Assembly: GCA_021736135.1 (NCBI GenBank)
Contig: JAIPGO010000021.1
Span: 1-45,697, forward strand
Source: Candidatus Cloacimonadota bacterium
GTDB lineage: Bacteria; Cloacimonadota; Cloacimonadia; Cloacimonadales; TCS61
Length of the DNA: 45,697 nt
Direction: 5' to 3'
The translations under genes and the position numbers were made by a program. The number at the start of each line of letters is the position of its first letter. Within the stretch, counting starts at the first letter, position 1. The notes beneath the pieces are model-generated. The model was not told the DNA's origin, did not search any database, and saw only the letters and a list, made by a program, of their open reading frames with translations. Of this stretch, positions 18,998 to 45,697 are shown one piece after another.

Positions 18998-20383
18998 ATG
19001 AATGTTATTAACAAGATTACATCTCCCCAGTTAAAGAAGATCCATGCCGGAAAAGTGCGCGACAGTTTCAGGATTGACGCTCAAACCCGCATGCTGGTGG
19101 TTTCAGACCGGATTTCCAGTTTCGACAGTGTATTGAATTCGGAAATTCCTTATAAAGGTGCTGTGCTCAATGGCATCGCTGCCTGGTGGTTTGAACACAC
19201 GCAGGATATTATCCCTAATCATTACCTGAAATCAATTGATCCTAATATTGCGCTGGTGCGGGAAGCGGTTCCTATAAAAATTGAGATGATCGTTCGCGGT
19301 TACCTTACCGGTTCCATGTGGCGCAAATATCAGAATGGCGGTCGCGAGATTTCCGGACTGTCTATTGAAAATGGCCTGACGAAGAACCAGAAATTCTCCT
19401 CTCCCTTACTCACACCTACTACCAAAGAAAAGCATGACCGTGAGATTTCACCGGCAGATATAGTTAATGAAGGCTGGATTTCCCAGGAAATATATGAACA
19501 GATGGCAGCAATATCCCTTGAACTCTTTGCCCGTGGTACAGAGCTGCTTTATCAAAAAGGTATAGTCCTCGTTGACACTAAATATGAGTTTGGCTTGATC
19601 GATGGTAAACTGGTTCTCATTGATGAAATTCACACGCCGGACAGTTCACGTTTCTGGTCACTCGACTCCTACAATGAAAATCCCGCTGATGTTGACCAGA
19701 TGGATAAGGAATATGTCCGTCAATGGCTCTTGAATAACAAAATTGATGATATAGTGCCGGAAATACTGCCGGAAGAGGTGATTGCCGAAACTTCCCGCCG
19801 CTATCTTGCCATTTATAAGATCATTACCGGCACGGAAATGCTCATTGATGATGCCACCGATATCCGTCAGCGCATAACAGCTAATCTTGTGAAAGCTGGT
19901 ATTATTAAAGACGGCTTTGTTTCCATTATCATGGGTTCTCCCTCAGATAAAGAACATTGCGGTAAAATTAAACAGGTTCTGGATAAATATAATATCTTCA
20001 CTGAAATGCGAGTTGTTTCTGCTCATAAGAATGGAGAACGCATTCCTGAAATTCTGGCCGACCGCAATAATGCCATTGAACCGGGAGTGATCATTGCCGT
20101 AGCCGGCAGATCTAATGGTTTGGGGGGTGCTTTAGCAGCTAATAGTTCACTGCCTGTGATAAGTTGTCCCCCTTTCAAAGATAAGACCGATATGCTGGTA
20201 AACATCAATTCCACACTTATAATGCCCTCCCGAACTCCGGGACTTACGGTGATTGATTCCGGTAACGCTGCCCTGGCAGCACTCAGAGCATTAAACCTGC
20301 CCAGACTGAGGGACATTTTTAACCTGGAAATTGCTGATATAAAACTTGAACTCATAAAAGCTGACAAGGATATGAATCTATGA
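18998..20383 (+). CDS. purCE: SAICAR synthetase-AIR carboxylase fusion (PAICS-like, class II PurE)
   Basis: A 461-residue fusion. Residues 1 to about 270 are PurC (KIHAGKVRDSF, SDRISSFDSV, RGYLTGSMW, LVDTKYEFG, IDEIHTPDSSRFW). Residues from about 306 are PurE. The PurE half has MGSPSDKEHC, VSAHKNGER (341 on) and AVAGRSNGLGG (367 on), then PVISCPPFKD. This is the class II pattern of animal PAICS (SAHKGP, AVAGRSNGLG, PVISCPP); the class I GAGGAAHLPGM is absent. Class II enzymes carboxylate AIR directly with CO2, which fits the absence of purK from the cluster. AGAGG precedes the ATG. The stop overlaps purD (ATGA). Confidence 0.94.
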   Translation: MNVINKITSPQLKKIHAGKVRDSFRIDAQTRMLVVSDRISSFDSVLNSEIPYKGAVLNGIAAWWFEHTQDIIPNHYLKSIDPNIALVREAVPIKIEMIVRGYLTGSMWRKYQNGGREISGLSIENGLTKNQKFSSPLLTPTTKEKHDREISPADIVNEGWISQEIYEQMAAISLELFARGTELLYQKGIVLVDTKYEFGLIDGKLVLIDEIHTPDSSRFWSLDSYNENPADVDQMDKEYVRQWLLNNKIDDIVPEILPEEVIAETSRRYLAIYKIITGTEMLIDDATDIRQRITANLVKAGIIKDGFVSIIMGSPSDKEHCGKIKQVLDKYNIFTEMRVVSAHKNGERIPEILADRNNAIEPGVIIAVAGRSNGLGGALAANSSLPVISCPPFKDKTDMLVNINSTLIMPSRTPGLTVIDSGNAALAALRALNLPRLRDIFNLEIADIKLELIKADKDMNL

Positions 20384-21618
20384 AGATTGCAGTAATCGGT
20401 TCAGGTGGCAGAGAACATGCCATCATCAGTAAACTTTCTGCCAGCCCTGCTGTGGAAAAAATATTTGCCATTCCGGGAAATGGCGGTACTGAAAACAATA
20501 TTCCGCTTAGTGTTAACGATTTTGACGGGATTAAAAGTTTTTGTGAAAACGAAGGTGTCGGGCTTATCTTTGTGGGTCCGGAAGACCCCCTGCAAGCCGG
20601 GATCGTTGATTACTTCTCCGGTAGCAATATAAAAGTTTTTGGTCCGGATAAACGTGCTGCCCAACTGGAAAGCTCAAAAATTTATGCTAAACAGTTTATG
20701 CAGAAATATGGCGTTGCCACTGCCGCTTTTCAGGCCTTTACCGATCTGGAATCTGCCCTGGAATTCTGCCACCAGTGGGAGGGGAACTGCGTTATCAAAT
20801 ACGACGGACTGGCTGCCGGTAAAGGTGTTTTTGTCTGTTCAGACATGGATGAAGCCACTTTTGCTCTTGGTATGATCAATACCAGGTATGGCGCTAATGC
20901 CCCTCTGCTTATCGAAGAAAAACTCACGGGTCAGGAGCTATCCCTGCTGGCTTTTACTGATGGTGTAAATTATAAACTGCTGCTGCCTTCTCAGGATCAT
21001 AAACAGCTTCTCGAGGGCGATGAAGGTCCTAATACCGGGGGTATGGGCGCTTTTTGTCCCGTGGATTTCTGTGATGCCGCCCTATTGGCTAAGATCGAAG
21101 AAACAATCATCAAACCTGCCTTTAAAGGTATTGCTGCCGAGAACTTTAATTACCACGGAGTCCTCTATTTCGGGTTGATGATCAATAATAATATCCCCCA
21201 GGTTCTGGAATTTAATGTCCGCCTCGGTGATCCCGAAACAGAAGTCGTGCTCCCTGCCTTAAAATCGGATTTATTTCAGCTCGTTAACGCCTGCTTCGAT
21301 GGCAGCCTTGCCGATCTGGAACTGGAATTCCATCCCGGCTATTTTGTTGACGTCGTCCTTGTTTCTGGCGGCTATCCCGGTGTTTATGTAAAATACTTGC
21401 CCATTACAGGACTGGAAAATATAAACTGTCAGGTCTTTCACGCCGGCACAAAACTTAAAAACTCGCAACTGGTAACCAGCGGAGGCAGAGTACTCAATAT
21501 TGTGCATACCGGTAAAACTTTACCGGAAGCTATTGCCAATTGTTATGCAGAAGTGAAAAAGATTACTTTTAAGGACGTCTTTTACCGTAAAGACATCGGT
21601 AACCGTAAAAATATATGA
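20380..21618 (+). CDS. purD: Phosphoribosylamine-glycine ligase (GAR synthetase)
   Basis: ATP-grasp ligase that joins glycine to phosphoribosylamine. The 412-residue protein begins MKIAVIGSGGREHAI, the standard PurD start, and has VGPEDPLQAGIVD, the ATP-grasp strand NCVIKYDGLAAGKGVFV, LLPSQDHKQLLEGDEGPNTGGMGAF, and the metal-binding LEFNVRLGDPETEVVLP. Overlaps both neighbours by four bases (ATGA), so translation is coupled through purC-purE, purD and purN-guaA. Confidence 0.96.
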   Translation: MKIAVIGSGGREHAIISKLSASPAVEKIFAIPGNGGTENNIPLSVNDFDGIKSFCENEGVGLIFVGPEDPLQAGIVDYFSGSNIKVFGPDKRAAQLESSKIYAKQFMQKYGVATAAFQAFTDLESALEFCHQWEGNCVIKYDGLAAGKGVFVCSDMDEATFALGMINTRYGANAPLLIEEKLTGQELSLLAFTDGVNYKLLLPSQDHKQLLEGDEGPNTGGMGAFCPVDFCDAALLAKIEETIIKPAFKGIAAENFNYHGVLYFGLMINNNIPQVLEFNVRLGDPETEVVLPALKSDLFQLVNACFDGSLADLELEFHPGYFVDVVLVSGGYPGVYVKYLPITGLENINCQVFHAGTKLKNSQLVTSGGRVLNIVHTGKTLPEAIANCYAEVKKITFKDVFYRKDIGNRKNI

Positions 21619-24035
21619 AAGATATTATTATTATGATTTCCGGTCGCGGCTCTAATATGGCTGCCATCCTGGCTGAAATTGATGCCGGTGTTCTCAAGGG
21701 ACTATGCCGGGTGAAAGCAGTCTTTTCTAATGATGAGACGGCACCGGGTTTAAAGATTGCTGCTTCCTGCCGCATTAGAACAAGTGTTATTCGATCTCAG
21801 GGCAGAAAACGCAAAGAATATAACAAGATGCTGCTGGACTGGCTGCTGGAGGAAAATCCTGACTATATCATTCTGGCAGGTTATATGCTAATCCTGCCAC
21901 CTGAAATTATAAATGCATTTCCCCAGCGTATCATCAATATTCATCCTGCCGATACTACTCAACATCAGGGCTTACACGGCTACGAATGGGCATGGGATAA
22001 TCATCTGACGGAAACAAAGATCACTGTACACTATGTGGATGAAGGGCTCGATACCGGAAGCATCATCAGCCAGCAGGTCGTTAATCTCCAAGGCACAAAA
22101 TCGCTGGATGACATAGAAAAAAGAGGCTTACAGACTGAGCATAAAATGTACAGCACCGTCCTCGCCCAACTCTTGTCCCACGACTCTCAACTCACGACTC
22201 ACGACTCTCAACTCACGACTCACGAAATCGCCATTATTGATTTCGGGGGGCAATATACTCACCTCATCGCCAGGCGTATCAGGAAGCTGGGTGTTTTCAG
22301 CGAAATCTACCAGCCCGAAGATTTCCGCATTTCACCGCAAACAATTGGCATTATCTTCTCCGGTGGTCCGCAATCAGTTATTGCTGACTCTGCCTATAAA
22401 ATAGATATTGACTTGAATGCTATAAAAATTCCCGTTCTGGGAATCTGTTATGGTCATCAGCTTATAGCCAGTCTCACCGGTGGCACTATTGAAAGCGGGA
22501 ATAATCCCGAATACGGTTATGCTGAAATTGATTGCCAACTTGAAAATACGTTGTTTAGCGGAACAGTCATTCACCAGAAAGTCTGGATGAGTCATGGTGA
22601 CCAGGTTACCGGAATACCGGCTGGATTTAAAATCACCGCTTTCACTGATACCGTCCCCATAGCTGCTTATGAATCTTTTGACGGCAGAATCATGGGTGTT
22701 CAGTTCCATCCGGAAGTTGTCCATACTCAATATGGTAACCAGCTCCTGGATAATTTCCTGAATCGCTGCACTACCAGTCGTGACTGGCTGGTGGAAAATT
22801 ATAAAGACCAGTTAATTGCCTCTGTTCGTCAGCAGGCAGGTGATAAAGATGTTCTTATACTTCTTTCCGGGGGAGTTGATTCCCTGGTTGCTATGGAACT
22901 TTGCCTGGCTGCCCTTGGCTCTCACAGAGTGCATGCTATTCACATTGATACCGGTTTTATGCGCCAGAATGAATCGTTAAATATTATTGAACATCTGGAA
23001 AGTCTGGGCTATAAACAGATGCGGCTCATCAATGCGGAAGAACTTTACCTGAAAGAACTTGCAGGTGTTGTTGACCCGGAAACCAAACGCCTGATCATTG
23101 GCAGATTATTCGTGGAAATCGCCAGTGAAGCAATTGCCGAATTTGAAAACAAAGATATTCTCCTCGTGCAGGGGACTATCTATCCTGATACGATCGAAAG
23201 CGGTGCTTCTCAAAAATCTGCCAAGATCAAGACCCATCATAACCGCGTGGACGAAATTGAGAAACTCATTGCTGCCGGTAAAATCCTCGAACCCATCAAA
23301 GACCTCTATAAAGACGAAGTACGTGAACTCGGTATTGAACTGGATATTCCCCCCCAACTGGTAAACCGTCATCCCTTCCCGGGACCGGGACTTGCTATCC
23401 GCATACTTGGCTCAGAAACCAGCATTCCCGAACCGGGATTTGACAGCGAAGAAGAGTTGCTTAATAATATTATTAAGGAATATGGACTTAAAGGAATCAT
23501 TTTACCTATAAAAAGCGTCGGCGTAATGGGCGATTTCCGCACTTATCAGCACCCTGCCCTGATCTGGTTTAAAAGCGGTTATCTTACATCTCCCGTCTCC
23601 CGTCTCCCGTCTCCCGATTCCCCCTGGAATTCACTTCAAAAAGCTTCCATCAAAATCGTTAATACTTTAAAAACCGTGAATCGGGTTGTGTTTTCCCTCA
23701 ATGAACCAGAAAAATATATTCTGAAAGAACATTATCTCACTAAAGAAGCCTGTAATAATCTGCGCCGGGTAGATTTCCTGCTCATGAACGATACTGCTCA
23801 TATTAAGGAAATCTGGCAGATGCCTGTTGTTCAATTACCACTCTTTGACCTGGATGGTGATCAGGTTTACCTCATGCGACCGGTTACTTCTCTGGATGCC
23901 ATGACAGCCAATTTTTACGAAATGGATTTTGATCTTCTAAATAACCTGATAGCCAAAACAAAACAGCTCTCGGGAATAGCCAACGTTCTCTATGATATTA
24001 CTTCAAAACCACCCGCCACTATAGAATGGGAATGA
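21615..24035 (+). CDS. purN-guaA: GAR formyltransferase-GMP synthase fusion (PurN-GuaA)
   Basis: One 806-residue frame carries two enzymes from distant steps. Residues 1-186 are PurN: SGRGSNM, IINIHPAD (Asn108, His110) and the catalytic Asp in VDEGLDTGS. Residues from 204 are complete GuaA: IIDFGGQYTHLIARR, glutaminase Cys278 (GICYGHQ), His365-Pro-Glu367, the ATP PP-loop SGGVDS (418-423), and the C-terminus KPPATIEWE. The joining residues 187-203 are the translation of a heptamer DNA array (22165-22227). A second array inserts about 15 residues (655-670) in the C-terminal dimerisation domain. No stop or ribosome binding site lies between the halves. Such a fusion is not one I know; two proteins could still be made by internal start or cleavage. 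Last gene of the superoperon. Confidence 0.93.
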   Translation: MKDIIIMISGRGSNMAAILAEIDAGVLKGLCRVKAVFSNDETAPGLKIAASCRIRTSVIRSQGRKRKEYNKMLLDWLLEENPDYIILAGYMLILPPEIINAFPQRIINIHPADTTQHQGLHGYEWAWDNHLTETKITVHYVDEGLDTGSIISQQVVNLQGTKSLDDIEKRGLQTEHKMYSTVLAQLLSHDSQLTTHDSQLTTHEIAIIDFGGQYTHLIARRIRKLGVFSEIYQPEDFRISPQTIGIIFSGGPQSVIADSAYKIDIDLNAIKIPVLGICYGHQLIASLTGGTIESGNNPEYGYAEIDCQLENTLFSGTVIHQKVWMSHGDQVTGIPAGFKITAFTDTVPIAAYESFDGRIMGVQFHPEVVHTQYGNQLLDNFLNRCTTSRDWLVENYKDQLIASVRQQAGDKDVLILLSGGVDSLVAMELCLAALGSHRVHAIHIDTGFMRQNESLNIIEHLESLGYKQMRLINAEELYLKELAGVVDPETKRLIIGRLFVEIASEAIAEFENKDILLVQGTIYPDTIESGASQKSAKIKTHHNRVDEIEKLIAAGKILEPIKDLYKDEVRELGIELDIPPQLVNRHPFPGPGLAIRILGSETSIPEPGFDSEEELLNNIIKEYGLKGIILPIKSVGVMGDFRTYQHPALIWFKSGYLTSPVSRLPSPDSPWNSLQKASIKIVNTLKTVNRVVFSLNEPEKYILKEHYLTKEACNNLRRVDFLLMNDTAHIKEIWQMPVVQLPLFDLDGDQVYLMRPVTSLDAMTANFYEMDFDLLNNLIAKTKQLSGIANVLYDITSKPPATIEWE
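22165..22227 (+). repeat. In-frame heptamer array forming the PurN-GuaA linker
   Basis: Nine 7-nt units in register: CCCAACT, CTTGTCC, CACGACT, CTCAACT, CACGACT, CACGACT, CTCAACT, CACGACT, CACGAAA. Three units make a 21-base, 7-residue repeat, seen as HDSQLTT twice in the protein. It lies exactly between the end of PurN and the first strand of GuaA. Confidence 0.85.
23590..23617 (+). repeat. In-frame heptamer array inside GuaA
   Basis: Four 7-nt units CTCCCGT, CTCCCGT, CTCCCGT, CTCCCGA. Because 7 is not a multiple of 3 each unit is read in a different frame, giving SPVSRLPSPDSP instead of a repeated peptide. The surrounding GuaA sequence (HPALIWFKSG before, WNSLQKASIKIV after) continues normally. 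Confidence 0.85.
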
Positions 24036-24046
24036 GGCTTTTAAAT

Positions 24047-24074
24047 AATTGAAAATGTAAAATGTAAAATGTAA
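24047..24074 (+). repeat. AT-rich heptamer array just 3' of guaA
   Basis: Four units AATTGAA, AATGTAA, AATGTAA, AATGTAA, starting 12 bases after the stop codon. Related arrays, some on the other strand, occur at 27491, 41043 and inside the secreted-protein gene at 44962. Confidence 0.75.
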
Positions 24075-24083
24075 AGAAAATAT

Positions 24084-24142: not shown

Positions 24143-24218
<76 letters not shown>

Positions 24219-24339: not shown

Positions 24340-25314
24340 ATGAAGAAAATAGCAATAACCGGTGCCAATGGCTTTATTGGAAGCAGATTAAGCAGCTTTC
24401 TACTCTCACAGGGATATGATGTGCGCTGTCTGGTGAGAAAGAACAGCGACCTCTCTCTGCTGGCTAAAGATCTGGAAACCGTTTTCGTTGATTACAATGA
24501 TTCCGAAAGCCTGCAAACAGCTCTTAAGGATAGTGAAATCGTCATTCATCTGGCTGCTCTTACCCGTGCTAAAACCTGGGAAGAATTCCGCAAAATCAAT
24601 ATTGATCTGGTGGAAACACTCGTCAACATCGTTAATGTCAGTTCTTCCATCGAACAATTCATCTTTATGAGTTCACAGGCAGCTGCCGGTCCTGCTGCAT
24701 CAGCCTTACCAAAAAGAGAAGATGAGGAATGCAATCCGGTAACAATGTATGGTAACAGCAAACTGGAAGCCGAGGAACTCATCCAGGATCAATGCCTGAA
24801 AGCCTGGACTATTCTGCGTCCTGTTTCCGTATTTGGTCCCGGTGAAAAAGATTTGCTGGAATATTACAAAATCGTAAACAAAGGCATCGCACCCTTGATC
24901 GGGATGAGGCATAAATATATCAGCTTAATTTATGTGGATGACCTGTGCCGTTTAACTTCTCTGGCTGTCGGCAATGAAGCGGCATATAATGAAATATTCT
25001 TCGCTGCCGGCTCTGAAAATATCAGTATGGCAGGTTTTGCCTATTTGATTTCTCAAGCTCTAAATAAAGTAGTAACAAAAATCCGCATATTTGTTCCTGT
25101 TTTATGGCTGGCTGCCGTGATACTGGAGCTTTTCGGCTGGTCGAGTAAGCGTCCTCCGGTTCTTAACCGCGAAAAACTGCGCGAAATGAGTCAGCGCTAC
25201 TGGCTGGCGAGTAATCACAAAGCTGAAGAAATTCTCGGATTCACTCAGGAAGCTACTCTCGTTAAGCAGATGCAAACCACCATTAACTGGTACAAAGAAC
25301 ACAATGTTTTATAG
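24340..25314 (+). CDS. NAD-dependent epimerase/dehydratase (extended SDR family)
   Basis: A 324-residue nucleotide-sugar-type SDR. The N-terminal Rossmann motif is ITGANGFIGSRL, followed by the VDYNDSESL acid-loop region, IHLAALTRA, FMSSQAAAGP and the catalytic Tyr-Lys pair in MYGNSKLEAE; RPVSVFGPGEKD is the usual substrate-side segment. The substrate cannot be read from the sequence. The ATG at 24340 puts the Rossmann strand right at the N-terminus; a TTG at 24304 would add 12 residues. The best ribosome binding site, AGGGGA near 24314, is too far from the ATG for a normal spacing, so the start is not settled. The stop overlaps the region of the following outer-membrane protein start. Confidence 0.88.
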   Translation: MKKIAITGANGFIGSRLSSFLLSQGYDVRCLVRKNSDLSLLAKDLETVFVDYNDSESLQTALKDSEIVIHLAALTRAKTWEEFRKINIDLVETLVNIVNVSSSIEQFIFMSSQAAAGPAASALPKREDEECNPVTMYGNSKLEAEELIQDQCLKAWTILRPVSVFGPGEKDLLEYYKIVNKGIAPLIGMRHKYISLIYVDDLCRLTSLAVGNEAAYNEIFFAAGSENISMAGFAYLISQALNKVVTKIRIFVPVLWLAAVILELFGWSSKRPPVLNREKLREMSQRYWLASNHKAEEILGFTQEATLVKQMQTTINWYKEHNVL

Positions 25315-25315
25315 T

Positions 25316-26881
25316 ATGAAAAGACTCACTTTTACTATTATTGTATTCCTGGTTTACTTGACTCTCTTCGGACAGGATGCCGATTCCTTACAGGTATTGT
25401 CTCCGGAAGATTCGCTGCTTATACAACAATTGGAAGACGAAACCGGTATTTATGAACAGGACACCTTAAAAATCGACCTTGTTAAACTGCGCCGGCAGAT
25501 CACTGAAGAATTGGACTCGCGTCTGCAACCTCAACGAAAAGAATGGTTCCGCTGGTGGTATCTTTCCGAAAACCGTCACTATACTTCACTCAAGCAGCCG
25601 GTTTTACATATTCGCAAAGAGGGGTTTACCATGTATCCCCACTTCGTGGAAAGCCTGCATATCCTGCAGAGTGAACGTAGTTTTTATAAAATTAACAGTT
25701 ATGGTCATCATCTTAACCTTGATTCTTATGATTATGATCTGCCGATTACTCTATCTTCTTCTGAAGCCGGGCTGGGCGACTGGCATCATTCACGAGGCAG
25801 CCTGGTTATCGAAAAAGGCAATACACCACTGTCTGACAGTCTCGCCTTTTCTGCCGGAGTCAGCGGTATAAACGGATACTGGTTCGGTAATGATGACAGT
25901 TCCGCTAATCTCAATTTTAATCTGCGCTACAGAACGCCCTGGGGAAATATCCGCTTTATTCATTCCGACTGGAGCGAAGAATTCGATGGAGCTCTCAGTT
26001 TCCTGCCTGAGGCAGATATCGTCACGCGTAGCGGTATTGAAGAAATCATCAAGTTTGAACATTCCGCTTTTGAAGCCGGATTACGCCTGGAAAATACTAA
26101 AACCGCCGGTATTGAACGCAAGCAGCAGGCTTTTCTGCTCCGCCGTGAACACTCCGGCAGGCTTCTGCATTATGACCTGAGTGCCGAATATATTACTGAA
26201 AAAACACCCGCAGATAGTTCCTGGCTGGTGTTTTCTGCTCAGGCTGACGGTAATCTTCTTTCTCTAAAATATAACCTTGATCTAAATTATTCCGGGAAAA
26301 ATATTTATTTTATCGATACCGAGCTTTTCCTGCCCTTTTATAAAAGTATAGGAATTACCGGTAATGCCTGGTTCTGGAAAAATGACAGTACGAGTATAAA
26401 TCCCGTTACCGGGCAATTAAAACGTTATGGCGCTGGACTCGCCTGGCGCGACAGCCTGAATACTCTGGAAATAACAGGTGGTAATCAGGAAGATGACAGC
26501 TATGACGACTGGTACCTGGAAACTTATGCAAACTGTACTTTTTCCTGGAAACAGTTTGATCTTATTCTTAAGAACTGGACGTTTTATTTCATAAATCCCA
26601 ATCTGCAATCCCAGACGGAAGCAGAGCTCCGCTATCGTCTGCCATATAATAACGCTCTCAGACTGCAGTACCGCAACCGTTATTATTCCGAATATCTCAA
26701 CCGTTACGATGAATACATCCCTTCCGGCATCTGGCATGACCTGCTCATCGGAGTACAGATAACCCGCCGCTTTGAGATCAGATTCGAAGCCGTGAATATC
26801 ACAAATAATCTCATCTTCATGGGGCAGCAGCAGGCAGGCTACACCATGCTCTATAACCTCTATTGGTATTTCATAAATTAA
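25316..26881 (+). CDS. Outer-membrane beta-barrel protein (TonB-receptor-like barrel, no plug seen)
   Basis: A 521-residue exported protein. It begins with a signal peptide (MKRLTFTIIVFLVYLTLFGQ, cleavage likely near Gly-Gln). An acidic linker of about 50 residues follows, then many alternating amphipathic strands rich in Tyr, Trp and Asp/Asn turns, and a C-terminal aromatic end (MLYNLYWYFIN) typical of outer-membrane proteins. The segment FEAVNITNNLIFMGQQQAGYTMLYNLYWYF resembles the last strands of TonB-dependent receptors, but no TonB box or plug domain is visible. ATG 25316 is preferred because it starts the signal peptide; ATG 25304 would add four residues. Ligand unknown. Probably co-transcribed with the epimerase. 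Confidence 0.8.
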   Translation: MKRLTFTIIVFLVYLTLFGQDADSLQVLSPEDSLLIQQLEDETGIYEQDTLKIDLVKLRRQITEELDSRLQPQRKEWFRWWYLSENRHYTSLKQPVLHIRKEGFTMYPHFVESLHILQSERSFYKINSYGHHLNLDSYDYDLPITLSSSEAGLGDWHHSRGSLVIEKGNTPLSDSLAFSAGVSGINGYWFGNDDSSANLNFNLRYRTPWGNIRFIHSDWSEEFDGALSFLPEADIVTRSGIEEIIKFEHSAFEAGLRLENTKTAGIERKQQAFLLRREHSGRLLHYDLSAEYITEKTPADSSWLVFSAQADGNLLSLKYNLDLNYSGKNIYFIDTELFLPFYKSIGITGNAWFWKNDSTSINPVTGQLKRYGAGLAWRDSLNTLEITGGNQEDDSYDDWYLETYANCTFSWKQFDLILKNWTFYFINPNLQSQTEAELRYRLPYNNALRLQYRNRYYSEYLNRYDEYIPSGIWHDLLIGVQITRRFEIRFEAVNITNNLIFMGQQQAGYTMLYNLYWYFIN

Positions 26882-27002: not shown

Positions 27003-27030
27003 CATCATTAATCATTAATTATTATTCAGT
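27003..27030 (+). repeat. AT-rich heptamer array
   Basis: CATCATT, AATCATT, AATTATT, ATTCAGT. The same first words recur at 27335 and 27637. Confidence 0.65.
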
Positions 27031-27033
27031 TAC

Positions 27034-27113
27034 CTTCCCTTCGTCCCCTCGCTCCCTCGTGCTTTCGTGCTTTCGTGCTTTCGCTCCCTCCATCCCTCAA
27101 TCACTCCATCTCT
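27034..27113 (+). repeat. Octamer array (10 units) with a threefold perfect core
   Basis: CTTCCCTT, CGTCCCCT, CGCTCCCT, CGTGCTTT three times, CGCTCCCT, CCATCCCT, CAATCACT, CCATCTCT. Exact 8-nt phase over 80 bases; C-first, T-last units. Confidence 0.75.
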
Positions 27114-27312
27114 CATTTCAAAAATTCCTCCCTGGTATTACAGATTGAAAAAAGTAATGAAAGGTAAGGAAAAGGTAATGTCATAACTTCATACATTAAT
27201 AATAATTACAACAAAATATTACCTTTTTCGCGTTTTTTGAATATATATACCCCTATTTTTAATTTTTTTTAAAAAAAGTCTCCCCGTCTCACTCTGAGCC
27301 TTGCGAAGCAAT

Positions 27313-27332
27313 CACTCTGAACGCAGTGAAGA
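27313..27332 (+). repeat. Dispersed imperfect palindrome (TGAACG element)
   Basis: CACTCTGAACGCAGTGAAGA; the ends TCACT and AGTGA are complementary around TGAACGC. An identical copy is at 27615-27634, a one-strand variant CACGCTGAACGTAGTGAAGA at 44558, and its complement at 41595. A degenerate copy lies near 26978. Confidence 0.75.
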
Positions 27333-27334
27333 TT

Positions 27335-27369
27335 CATCATTAATCGTTAATTATTAATCATTAATCATT
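27335..27369 (+). repeat. AT-rich heptamer array
   Basis: CATCATT, AATCGTT, AATTATT, AATCATT, AATCATT directly after a TGAACG element. Confidence 0.7.
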
Positions 27370-27430
27370 AATCAATTCTCCCCCCCTATTTTTAACTTTT
27401 CGGTTATAATCCCGATACGGATTGACTTAT

Positions 27431-27473
27431 GGAGTAAATTAACAGTGTTAATTTGTAGAAAACGAAGTTTTCT
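27431..27473 (+). repeat. REP-like hairpin with GGAG foot, plus neighbouring hairpin
   Basis: GGAG (27431-27434) and T precede a perfect eight-base stem AAATTAAC/GTTAATTT with loop AGT (27436-27454). Next to it GTAG (27455-27458) overlaps a second hairpin AGAAAAC/GTTTTCT with loop GAA (27457-27473), whose stem recurs at 44583-44601. Confidence 0.6.
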
Positions 27474-27490
27474 TTAGCATTCAATGTTTT

Positions 27491-27525
27491 CAATTTTACA
27501 TTTTACATTTTCAATTTTACATTCA
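27491..27525 (-). repeat. AT-rich heptamer array
   Basis: CAATTTT, ACATTTT, ACATTTT, CAATTTT, ACATTCA as read on the plus strand; complement of the type at 24047 and 41043. A small hairpin CAGGC-GAA-GCCTG follows at 27524-27536. Confidence 0.7.
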
Positions 27526-27538
27526 GGCGAAGCCTGCT

Positions 27539-27578
27539 CTAACCGTCTAACCTTCCAACCTTCTAACCCTCTATTTTT
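27539..27578 (+). repeat. Octamer array (5 units)
   Basis: CTAACCGT, CTAACCTT, CCAACCTT, CTAACCCT, CTATTTTT. Confidence 0.75.
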
Positions 27579-27614
27579 AAAACTCCCGTCTCACTCTGAG
27601 CCTGGCGAAGCAAT

Positions 27615-27634
27615 CACTCTGAACGCAGTGAAGA
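27615..27634 (+). repeat. Dispersed imperfect palindrome (TGAACG element), second copy
   Basis: Identical over 20 bases to 27313-27332; the similarity extends on both sides (CCCGTCTCACTCTGAGCC before, heptamers after), so the whole block was duplicated. Confidence 0.75.
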
Positions 27635-27636
27635 TT

Positions 27637-27671
27637 CATCATTAATCGTTAATTATTAATTATTAATCAGT
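27637..27671 (+). repeat. AT-rich heptamer array
   Basis: CATCATT, AATCGTT, AATTATT, AATTATT, AATCAGT; same words and position after the TGAACG element as at 27335, but different unit order. Confidence 0.7.
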
Positions 27672-27682
27672 TACTTCCCTTT

Positions 27683-27755
27683 CGCTCCCTCGCGCTTTCG
27701 TGCCTTCGTGTGCATTCGCCCCTCTATCCCTCAATCACTCTATCAGTCAAATCTT
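27683..27755 (+). repeat. Octamer array, partly irregular
   Basis: CGCTCCCT, CGCGCTTT, CGTGCCTT, a 10-mer and a 7-mer, then CTATCCCT, CAATCACT, CTATCAGT, CAAATCTT. It repeats several words of the 27034 array. Confidence 0.6.
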
Positions 27756-27855
27756 CCAATAAACTCTACCGATGATTGAATTCTTTACTAATCCGACATA
27801 AGTTTAGATGGCAGCTACATCAGAAGCCGCAATTGGGACTCTTAAACAAGATGGC

Positions 27856-27884
27856 ATCCCAATTGTCTGCGAATTGGGATCTAC
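27856..27884 (-). repeat. REP-like hairpin with GTAG foot
   Basis: On the minus strand GTAG (27881-27884) is followed by a perfect nine-base stem ATCCCAATT/AATTGGGAT with a seven-base loop. Same foot and orientation as at 41688 and 44321, different stem. Confidence 0.6.
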
Positions 27885-28020
27885 AAGATTTTCCATTTAT
27901 ATATCCTTAGATACTAAAATCACCCCAACCAGAATAACTGGAACTGATCGTCCCATAATTTTCTCCTCAATATCTTATTTTCTTATCTTATATATTACAT
28001 CTTCTCCATTATCTTTGTGT

Positions 28021-28076
28021 CTATCCGTCAATCAGTCCATCAGTCTTTCCTTCTTCCGGTCACCCCGTCAATTAAG
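28021..28076 (+). repeat. Octamer array overlapping the STAND gene stop codon
   Basis: CTATCCGT, CAATCAGT, CCATCAGT, CTTTCCTT, CTTCCGGT, CACCCCGT, CAATTAAG. The last two units cover the TGA stop (28068-28070, minus strand). Confidence 0.7.
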
Positions 28077-44629: not shown

Positions 44630-45697
44630 TCATTTAACTATCAACATTTTATTTGCTCCAAGAACCTGACCATCAAGGGATAATACGTAAAAGTAAACTC
44701 CGGTTGAGACCGTTTTCCTATCCTCATTCCGGCAATCCCAGACGGTGGAATAGGCTTCTCCATTCTGTGTTTCAGTTGTTGCCAAACCTGCTATACGTGC
44801 TAAACCGCTGAGACTTTGGGTAAGTTCTATGGTTTTAACTTTCTGACCTTTGGCATTATAAATATTAATAACTGGGTCAATAATCGGGACTTCCGGTAAA
44901 GTGAATTCCAGAAACACTACTCCTCTATCATTTTTAAGATAAACGGGATTGGGATAATTTTCAATTTTCAATTTTCCATTTTCAATTACACATTCCCCGT
45001 TTCCCACAATCTGATATTCATAACACCCCATATCAATAATATCATTCCAGACACGTTGATTACCAGCCAGATCCATGGGTGGAATATGCAGTCCCAGCGT
45101 ATCAGGTGTTCCGGCATCAATACAGGGTGAATCCTCGCTAAGCTGGTAAAATAAAGGCATATCCTCTGTTAATAACGGATCTGTTTCGCCGACAAATATC
45201 GGTTCCGAGTCCCAGAGATTGCCACTGAAAGTAACATATTCCGGCAGATCAACAAAAAACCAGTCCTCATCTACCAGGTTATTACTCATTACAACGTCAT
45301 AAGGCACTTCATATATCTCATTATTCAGAAATAATTGTGTGTACATATCGGGGTTATATATGATATTATTACTCAGTTCCGCCATCCCGAAAACGCTCAT
45401 CATCGTTCCCGAACCCTGGTTATTGGCAATTGTGCAGTTAGCAATATGCATCGGCTGAAACCGGTGCTGCAGATAAATCTCGGCAAAGGCCCAACTGGTT
45501 TGGGAAATGTTATTATTTATCACTAAAGTATTCGTAAGATCAAGATTATTCTCACTGATACTTTCAGTTATATTCTGATAGAAGATCAATGTCGCATCAT
45601 AAGCAGAACAGTTTGAGATTATTGTATTTCTGACTATAACATCCGAATAACCTAAAAATAAACCAGTCTTACTTCCGACATCTCCTATAAAACCCAG
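44630..45697 (-). CDS. Secreted beta-helix protein with T9SS-type sorting domain (N-terminus outside window)
   Basis: The frame is open to the right edge, so the start is missing; at least 356 residues are present. The first part has the Asn-rich rungs of a right-handed parallel beta helix (NTIISNCSA, NTLVINNNISQTS, IANCTIANNQGSG, ELSNNIIYNPD), ending with CIDAGTPDTLGLHIPPMDLAGNQRV and GCYEYQ, a common end of such helices in FCB secreted proteins. The last 90 residues are a FlgD-like C-terminal domain: YPNPVYLKN, VINIYNAKGQKVKTIEL, STGVYFYVLSLDG and KMLIVK, typical of type IX secretion cargo. Between them is a linker (VIENGKLKIEN) encoded by a heptamer array. Substrate unknown; surface adhesin or polysaccharide-active protein are possibilities. 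Confidence 0.85.
   Translation of the reverse strand: MGFIGDVGSKTGLFLGYSDVIVRNTIISNCSAYDATLIFYQNITESISENNLDLTNTLVINNNISQTSWAFAEIYLQHRFQPMHIANCTIANNQGSGTMMSVFGMAELSNNIIYNPDMYTQLFLNNEIYEVPYDVVMSNNLVDEDWFFVDLPEYVTFSGNLWDSEPIFVGETDPLLTEDMPLFYQLSEDSPCIDAGTPDTLGLHIPPMDLAGNQRVWNDIIDMGCYEYQIVGNGECVIENGKLKIENYPNPVYLKNDRGVVFLEFTLPEVPIIDPVINIYNAKGQKVKTIELTQSLSGLARIAGLATTETQNGEAYSTVWDCRNEDRKTVSTGVYFYVLSLDGQVLGANKMLIVK
44962..44989 (-). repeat. In-frame heptamer array in the T9SS protein linker
   Basis: Read on the plus strand: CAATTTT, CAATTTT, CCATTTT, CAATTAC. These are the same words as the intergenic arrays at 685 and 27491. Translated from the minus strand they give the linker IENGKLKIEN directly before the YPNP sorting domain. 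Confidence 0.8.

Follow-up and report, generated by a model that had tools for sequence, protein, structure and literature searches.

The window analysed here is a stretch of 45,697 nucleotides from a Candidatus Cloacimonadota bacterium (contig C143 of a 4.14 Mb assembly in 148 contigs, 97.95% complete), and it contains an uninterrupted frame of 806 codons (21615-24035, + strand) in which PurN, a linker encoded by an array of 7-nt repeats, and GuaA follow one another (Table 1). The first half of the frame matches Pfam Formyl_trans_N (1.3e-38) and scores over the cut-off of the PurN equivalog TIGR00639, with model coverage of residues 4-183 and the PurN residues N108, H110 and D146 invariant in the family alignment. 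The second half matches NF000848 (4.6e-160) over residues 205-806 and comprises the GATase, ATP-pyrophosphatase and C-terminal dimerisation (GMP_synt_C) domains; it has no ATG of its own at the point where the proteins of relatives begin M(Q/K/N)(K/N)(E)IAIIDF. Both models are matched end to end, one on each side of the array, which bears out the view of the initial annotation that two complete enzymes share one open frame.

Table 1. Coordinates of the fused gene and its repeat arrays in the window
Feature	Position	Strand	Description	Basis
purN half	21615..22175	+	phosphoribosylglycinamide formyltransferase, residues 1-187, ATG start	
Heptamer array CACGACT/CTCAACT	22177..22225	+	encodes linker HDSQLTTHDSQLTTH	TRF
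guaA half	22224..24035	+	glutamine-hydrolysing GMP synthase, residues 204-806 and stop codon	
Second array insertion, in guaA	23580..23612	+	33 nt / 11 aa, YLTSPVSRLPS	alignment of 27 GuaA
Third array, AAAATGT x3.4	24052..24075	+	17 nt past guaA stop; usual G>C orientation	TRF

The frame carries the sole guaA and the sole purN of the genome. A second Formyl_trans_N match belongs to a 319-aa protein of Fmt size on contig C4, and a profile search of the genome returned no PurT over cut-off, so that a working pathway would have to rely on the fused frame. From the sequence, it seems probable that a single PurN-GuaA chain is made and that both of its halves are active. In an AlphaFold model of this chain both halves fold (mean pLDDT 82, from an input of 30 sequences in which PurN was backed by just three alignment rows), and residues 191-201 of the linker fall below a pLDDT of 50, i.e. 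they are modelled as disordered. A disordered linker, together with an in-frame TTG at 22173-22175, would also suit the production of two chains from one frame, either by cleavage of the linker or from an internal GuaA start at that codon. However, no Shine-Dalgarno-like sequence lies ahead of the TTG, the array contains no ATG, GTG or TTG, and, as purN has no stop, the fused chain would still be made even with an internal start; separate chains are thus highly improbable.

The array at the joint

The array DNA, CCCACGACTCTCAACTCACGACTCACGACTCTCAACTCACGACTCACGA (49 nt), is translated as the linker peptide SHDSQLTTHDSQLTTHE, exactly as it was first read, and QLLSHDSQLTTHDSQLTTHEIAIIDFGGQYTHLIAR is the stretch of the fused protein that contains the linker-spanning peptide. 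Between the residue after LLS and the residue before EIAIIDF, array sequence occupies 45 nt. In TRF the array is reported at period 21 (2.3 copies, 96% matches, score 84) and at period 7 with a score of 66. When the window was resampled 200 times with a Markov-1 model (9.1 Mb in total), the highest scores were 73 at any period and 62 at periods 7, 14 or 21, so that the joint array exceeds chance expectation and has the 7-nt tandem units of LSSR/STRR-type heptamer repeats. The initial annotation had described the enzymes as joined exactly by nine such units: the array does sit exactly at the joint, but it consists of six clean heptamers (CACGACT and CTCAACT units) with partial ends. The two extra units, at 22165-22178, fit unequally when compared by eye (CCCAACT in 6/7 positions, CTTGTCC in only 3/7), and this DNA encodes an ordinary PurN C-terminus, AQLLS, where the sister genus has VLAELFSK. 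The suggestion that the array had lost its stops also needs revision, as in this orientation the + strand is free of stop and start codons in all three frames. The coding strand is the C-rich one (G minus C = -17), and in the reverse complement two frames contain stops and two contain possible starts.

Gain or loss of a single 7-nt unit would shift the frame, and the sequence derives from an assembly of many contigs, hence the open frame could stem from an error in assembly or consensus, or could represent a single phase of an array that varies, its true or majority length being one heptamer off and leaving the genes out of frame. Several observations speak against this. Firstly, a 49-nt array is short enough for common reads to span. 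Secondly, the best internal register is 21 nt (96% matches, against 80% at 7 nt), and slippage or collapse in that register preserves the frame. Thirdly, a frame break would deprive the sole guaA of a good start codon. Finally, the gene contains another, independent array that is likewise in frame. This array (TCTCCCG x4 at 23589-23616; TRF score 56, 100% matches) accounts for an 11-aa insertion, its ends ambiguous by a few residues, that none of the other 26 GuaA proteins compared possesses; in the AlphaFold model it forms a loop that connects a strand to a helix, and pLDDT drops under 50 at residues 662-664. An error at the joint array is accordingly unlikely.

The junction in relatives and the origin of the fusion

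The junction was compared in 19 relatives with purN close to guaA, and in every one of them the two genes are separate neighbours, each with its own stop or start, which marks the PurN-GuaA fusion as derived and answers the check on relatives proposed at the outset. The genes overlap by a few bases in L013, L015 and L024 and, at the other extreme, lie about 840 nt apart in L020. A search of 125 genomes across the phylum gave no second stop-free match to residues 1-806, so that an ancient and common fusion can be set aside; the match is interrupted by a single TAA in G104 and by three stops in G005. In the sister genus (G004, G019 and G026; GuaA 65% identical) purN ends in LFSK* or similar and guaA begins MQKEIAI or MQNEIAI. 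The comparison is most direct with G004 (..LFSK* / MQKEIAI), where 40 nt, stop and start included, separate the flanking S and E codons, against 45 nt of array between the same residues in the window. As judged from this alignment of the two junctions, the joint array has evidently taken over the place of the purN stop and the guaA start.

The reading that best accommodates these data, to which a probability of roughly two in three is assigned, is that a heptamer array in stop-free orientation took the place of the spacer between purN and guaA and thereby fused the genes. In the ancestral state purN and guaA would have been adjacent, with a short spacer between them. As 7-nt tandem arrays expanded throughout the genome in this lineage, an array would have replaced the whole spacer, including the purN stop codon and the guaA start codon, with its C-rich strand, which lacks stops, on the coding side and at a length that set both genes in one frame. 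The predicted product is a single bifunctional chain of about 90 kDa, in which a flexible stretch of some 15 residues links PurN to GuaA. How an array would replace a stop and a start, and not merely add sequence, is left unexplained by this proposal.

The order of events might also have been the reverse, a small deletion joining the genes first and a heptamer array later invading or replacing the linker. Arrays in the same genome invade loops of existing proteins, both in guaA and in secreted proteins, so the array could postdate the fusion, and the sites that arrays occupy in existing proteins are tolerant ones (the guaA loop, the boundary before Por_Secre_tail domains, a lipoprotein tether). 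In L034, from the Tobar genome, purN and guaA already share a frame, parted by one TAA and 3 nt. Against a fusion that came first stand the complete lack of non-array linker residues between the two enzymes and the failure of the 125-genome search to find a fused relative free of the array. A prior deletion consequently has an outside, if appreciable, chance, and it is more plausible that the array caused the fusion than that it invaded an existing linker.

Repeats are present in the purN-guaA spacers of several relatives. In six (L009, L014, L016, L017, L021 and L025), C-terminal tails of PurN derive from other repeat families (TTAACCACAGAGCACACGG and ACCGCAAAGACGCAAAG types); as the final PurN residues are encoded by repeats in these relatives, the 3' end of the gene appears to be a recurrent landing site for repeat DNA. 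The spacers of L018 and L020 contain small ORFs, one with a GIY-YIG nuclease domain in G009 and one of the PDDEXK_3 family in G008, which suggests that the gap between purN and guaA also gathers small nuclease-fold genes.

Heptamer arrays across the genome and their orientation

The joint array belongs to a large population. In 1.42 Mb of stretches sampled from the genome there are 180 arrays that are at least 75% heptameric, in dozens of unit families. At a TRF score of at least 40, arrays of period 7, 14 or 21 number 117 in 668 kb, against one in shuffled sequence. Exact arrays over the length threshold in the first 385 kb have periods of 7 (13 arrays), 8 (three) and 14 (three), with none at any other period from 4 to 15. 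The expansion is lineage-specific, there being almost none of it in the sister genus: at equal settings, 668 kb here yielded 81 period-7 arrays, and 110 kb from the sister genus yielded no array of period 7, two of period 14 and one of period 21. Arrays shun genes, as LSSR/STRR-type repeats do in lying mainly outside them, with only 23 of the 180 inside ORFs of at least 250 aa where 138 would be expected (p about 1e-73; ORFs were called mechanically, and the classes of array position are approximate).

Where arrays border on genes, they are strongly oriented. Among those within 50 nt after a gene end, G exceeds C on the coding strand of that gene in 44/47, a total that includes arrays filling a gap between genes; G-rich coding strands make up 36/39 of the one-sided skewed cases within 50 nt after or overlapping a gene end, a count whose overlap class is biased, as a stop-free array across a gene end would be scored as inside the ORF, and whose arrays starting after the stop codon escape that bias. 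The ratio of G-rich to C-rich falls to 7:7 at 51-150 nt and to 32:39 far from genes. The remaining eight of the 47 fill the whole gap between codirectional genes; all eight are G-rich on the coding strand, and the genes are kept apart. G-rich arrays after genes often provide stop codons, and in the gaps at L195 9907, L192 17152, L177 17816 and L122 7170 the array gives the upstream stop or a possible downstream GTG or TTG start. That arrays after genes are oriented so as to serve as three-frame stop cassettes is just one way to read this pattern: stop-free units (AGACGGG, GAGACGG and ATGGACG) share the G-rich orientation, which indicates that strand composition, and not stops alone, tracks the rule.

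The purN-guaA array runs opposite to every gap-filling array that left its genes unfused, and one of these, at L195 9907-9937, is of the same family, reversed. The nearest miss is at L139 10025-10057, where a stop-free array forms the C-terminus of an exonuclease-endonuclease-phosphatase protein, with a TAA directly after the array and the next ATG 4 nt further on. More tentatively, and with somewhat less than an even chance of being right, heptamer arrays may act as an orientation-dependent switch of gene architecture, the G-rich strand separating genes and the reversed strand reading through as an open linker to fuse genes or connect domains, such that one repeat expansion could have rewritten gene boundaries and protein linkers throughout the genome.

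Arrays that are read as protein within long ORFs lie before or inside C-terminal sorting domains of secretion (YPNPFNP, Por_Secre_tail), between a lipobox and a Peripla_BP_2 domain (the lipoprotein tether of L194), or at protein ends. Among the annotated ORFs that bear arrays, no cytosolic enzyme other than purN-guaA has an internal array, and the 1.42-Mb sample yielded no second complete gene fusion made by an array. A 3154-aa protein at L169 was considered as a second fusion and discarded, its array being embedded among successive carboxypeptidase-regulatory-like domains. About a dozen of the sampled arrays lie before or inside sorting-type domains; in the window itself, a heptamer array at 44956-44987 (- strand) encodes VIENGKLKIEN right before a sorting-type domain, YPNPVYLKN. 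At L197 8720-9047, about 46 copies of TCCCGAG (328 nt) give a 324-aa ORF an N-terminus of SRVPSPE repeats, but are possibly upstream non-coding DNA.

Precedents and significance

Heptamer arrays, their location at gene ends and in-frame repeats inside genes are all known already. In the account of the Beggiatoaceae TAACTGA direct repeats (MacGregor 2015, PMC4679880), heptamer arrays occur genome-wide and are mostly intergenic, with the stop-free orientation inside ORFs, mostly at protein ends, and stop-carrying heptamers overlapping gene ends. As described there, one heptamer dominates in Beggiatoaceae and repeats lie at the protein periphery, whereas here dozens of unit families share only their period and two complete enzymes are joined. 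The arrays are not members of the TAACTGA family, their units being ACGACTC, AAAATGT, ACGGGAG and others, with CACGACT/CTCAACT at the joint. The G-rich heptamer repeats of Xanthomonas and Nostoc (PMC4692102) are over-represented outside genes and found within 50 nt downstream of genes on the coding strand, some of them over the stop codon. Their orientation rule is the same as in this genome; however, not every unit here is a G-run, and the rule is broken by the array between purN and guaA. Rickettsia palindromic elements (PMC10969869) place repeat DNA in frame inside genes of metabolic enzymes, but they are mobile, about 150 bp long and not tandem heptamers, and each is inserted into one gene in place of bridging two. 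What appears to be new is the joining of two complete enzymes by a heptamer array, with controls of opposite orientation in the same genome: the open-access literature yielded no description of these, and no precedent for a gene fusion made by heptamers or for a fusion of PurN with GuaA.

Fusions among purine enzymes occur elsewhere, in the eukaryotic GART, with its PurN domain, and in PurC-PurE. All three place purine enzymes on one chain, but the steps of PurN and GuaA are not consecutive. To our knowledge, GAR formylation and GMP synthesis have no common intermediate, so that the joining of the two activities, to which the initial annotation had drawn attention, does not imply a functional link; for the same reason a near-neutral fusion is most likely, as opposed to one selected for channelling, and the fusion probably matters little for function.

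Gene fusions are usually observed after their junctions have decayed. The purN-guaA junction is still recognisable as repeat DNA and would thus be a rare visible case of a fusion made by repeats; with eight operon gaps of opposite orientation as controls, it renders testable the idea that repeats create fusions. It also illustrates how heptamers, with a unit length that is not a multiple of three, can turn into protein if one strand is stop-free.

The surroundings of the fused gene in the window have features of their own. Two genes upstream, at 18998-20383 (+ strand), the domains of PurC (SAICAR synthetase) and PurE (AIR carboxylase) lie in one ORF of 461 aa, and TRF lists no heptamer array where they join. 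A tRNA-Lys (anticodon ctt; 24143-24218) follows shortly after guaA on the - strand, opposite to it. An ORF of 525 aa at 25304-26881 (+ strand) matches nothing in Pfam or NCBIfam at E 0.001, and a gap of about 1 kb at 27004-28045 is crowded with at least ten TRF arrays of period 7, 8 and 10.
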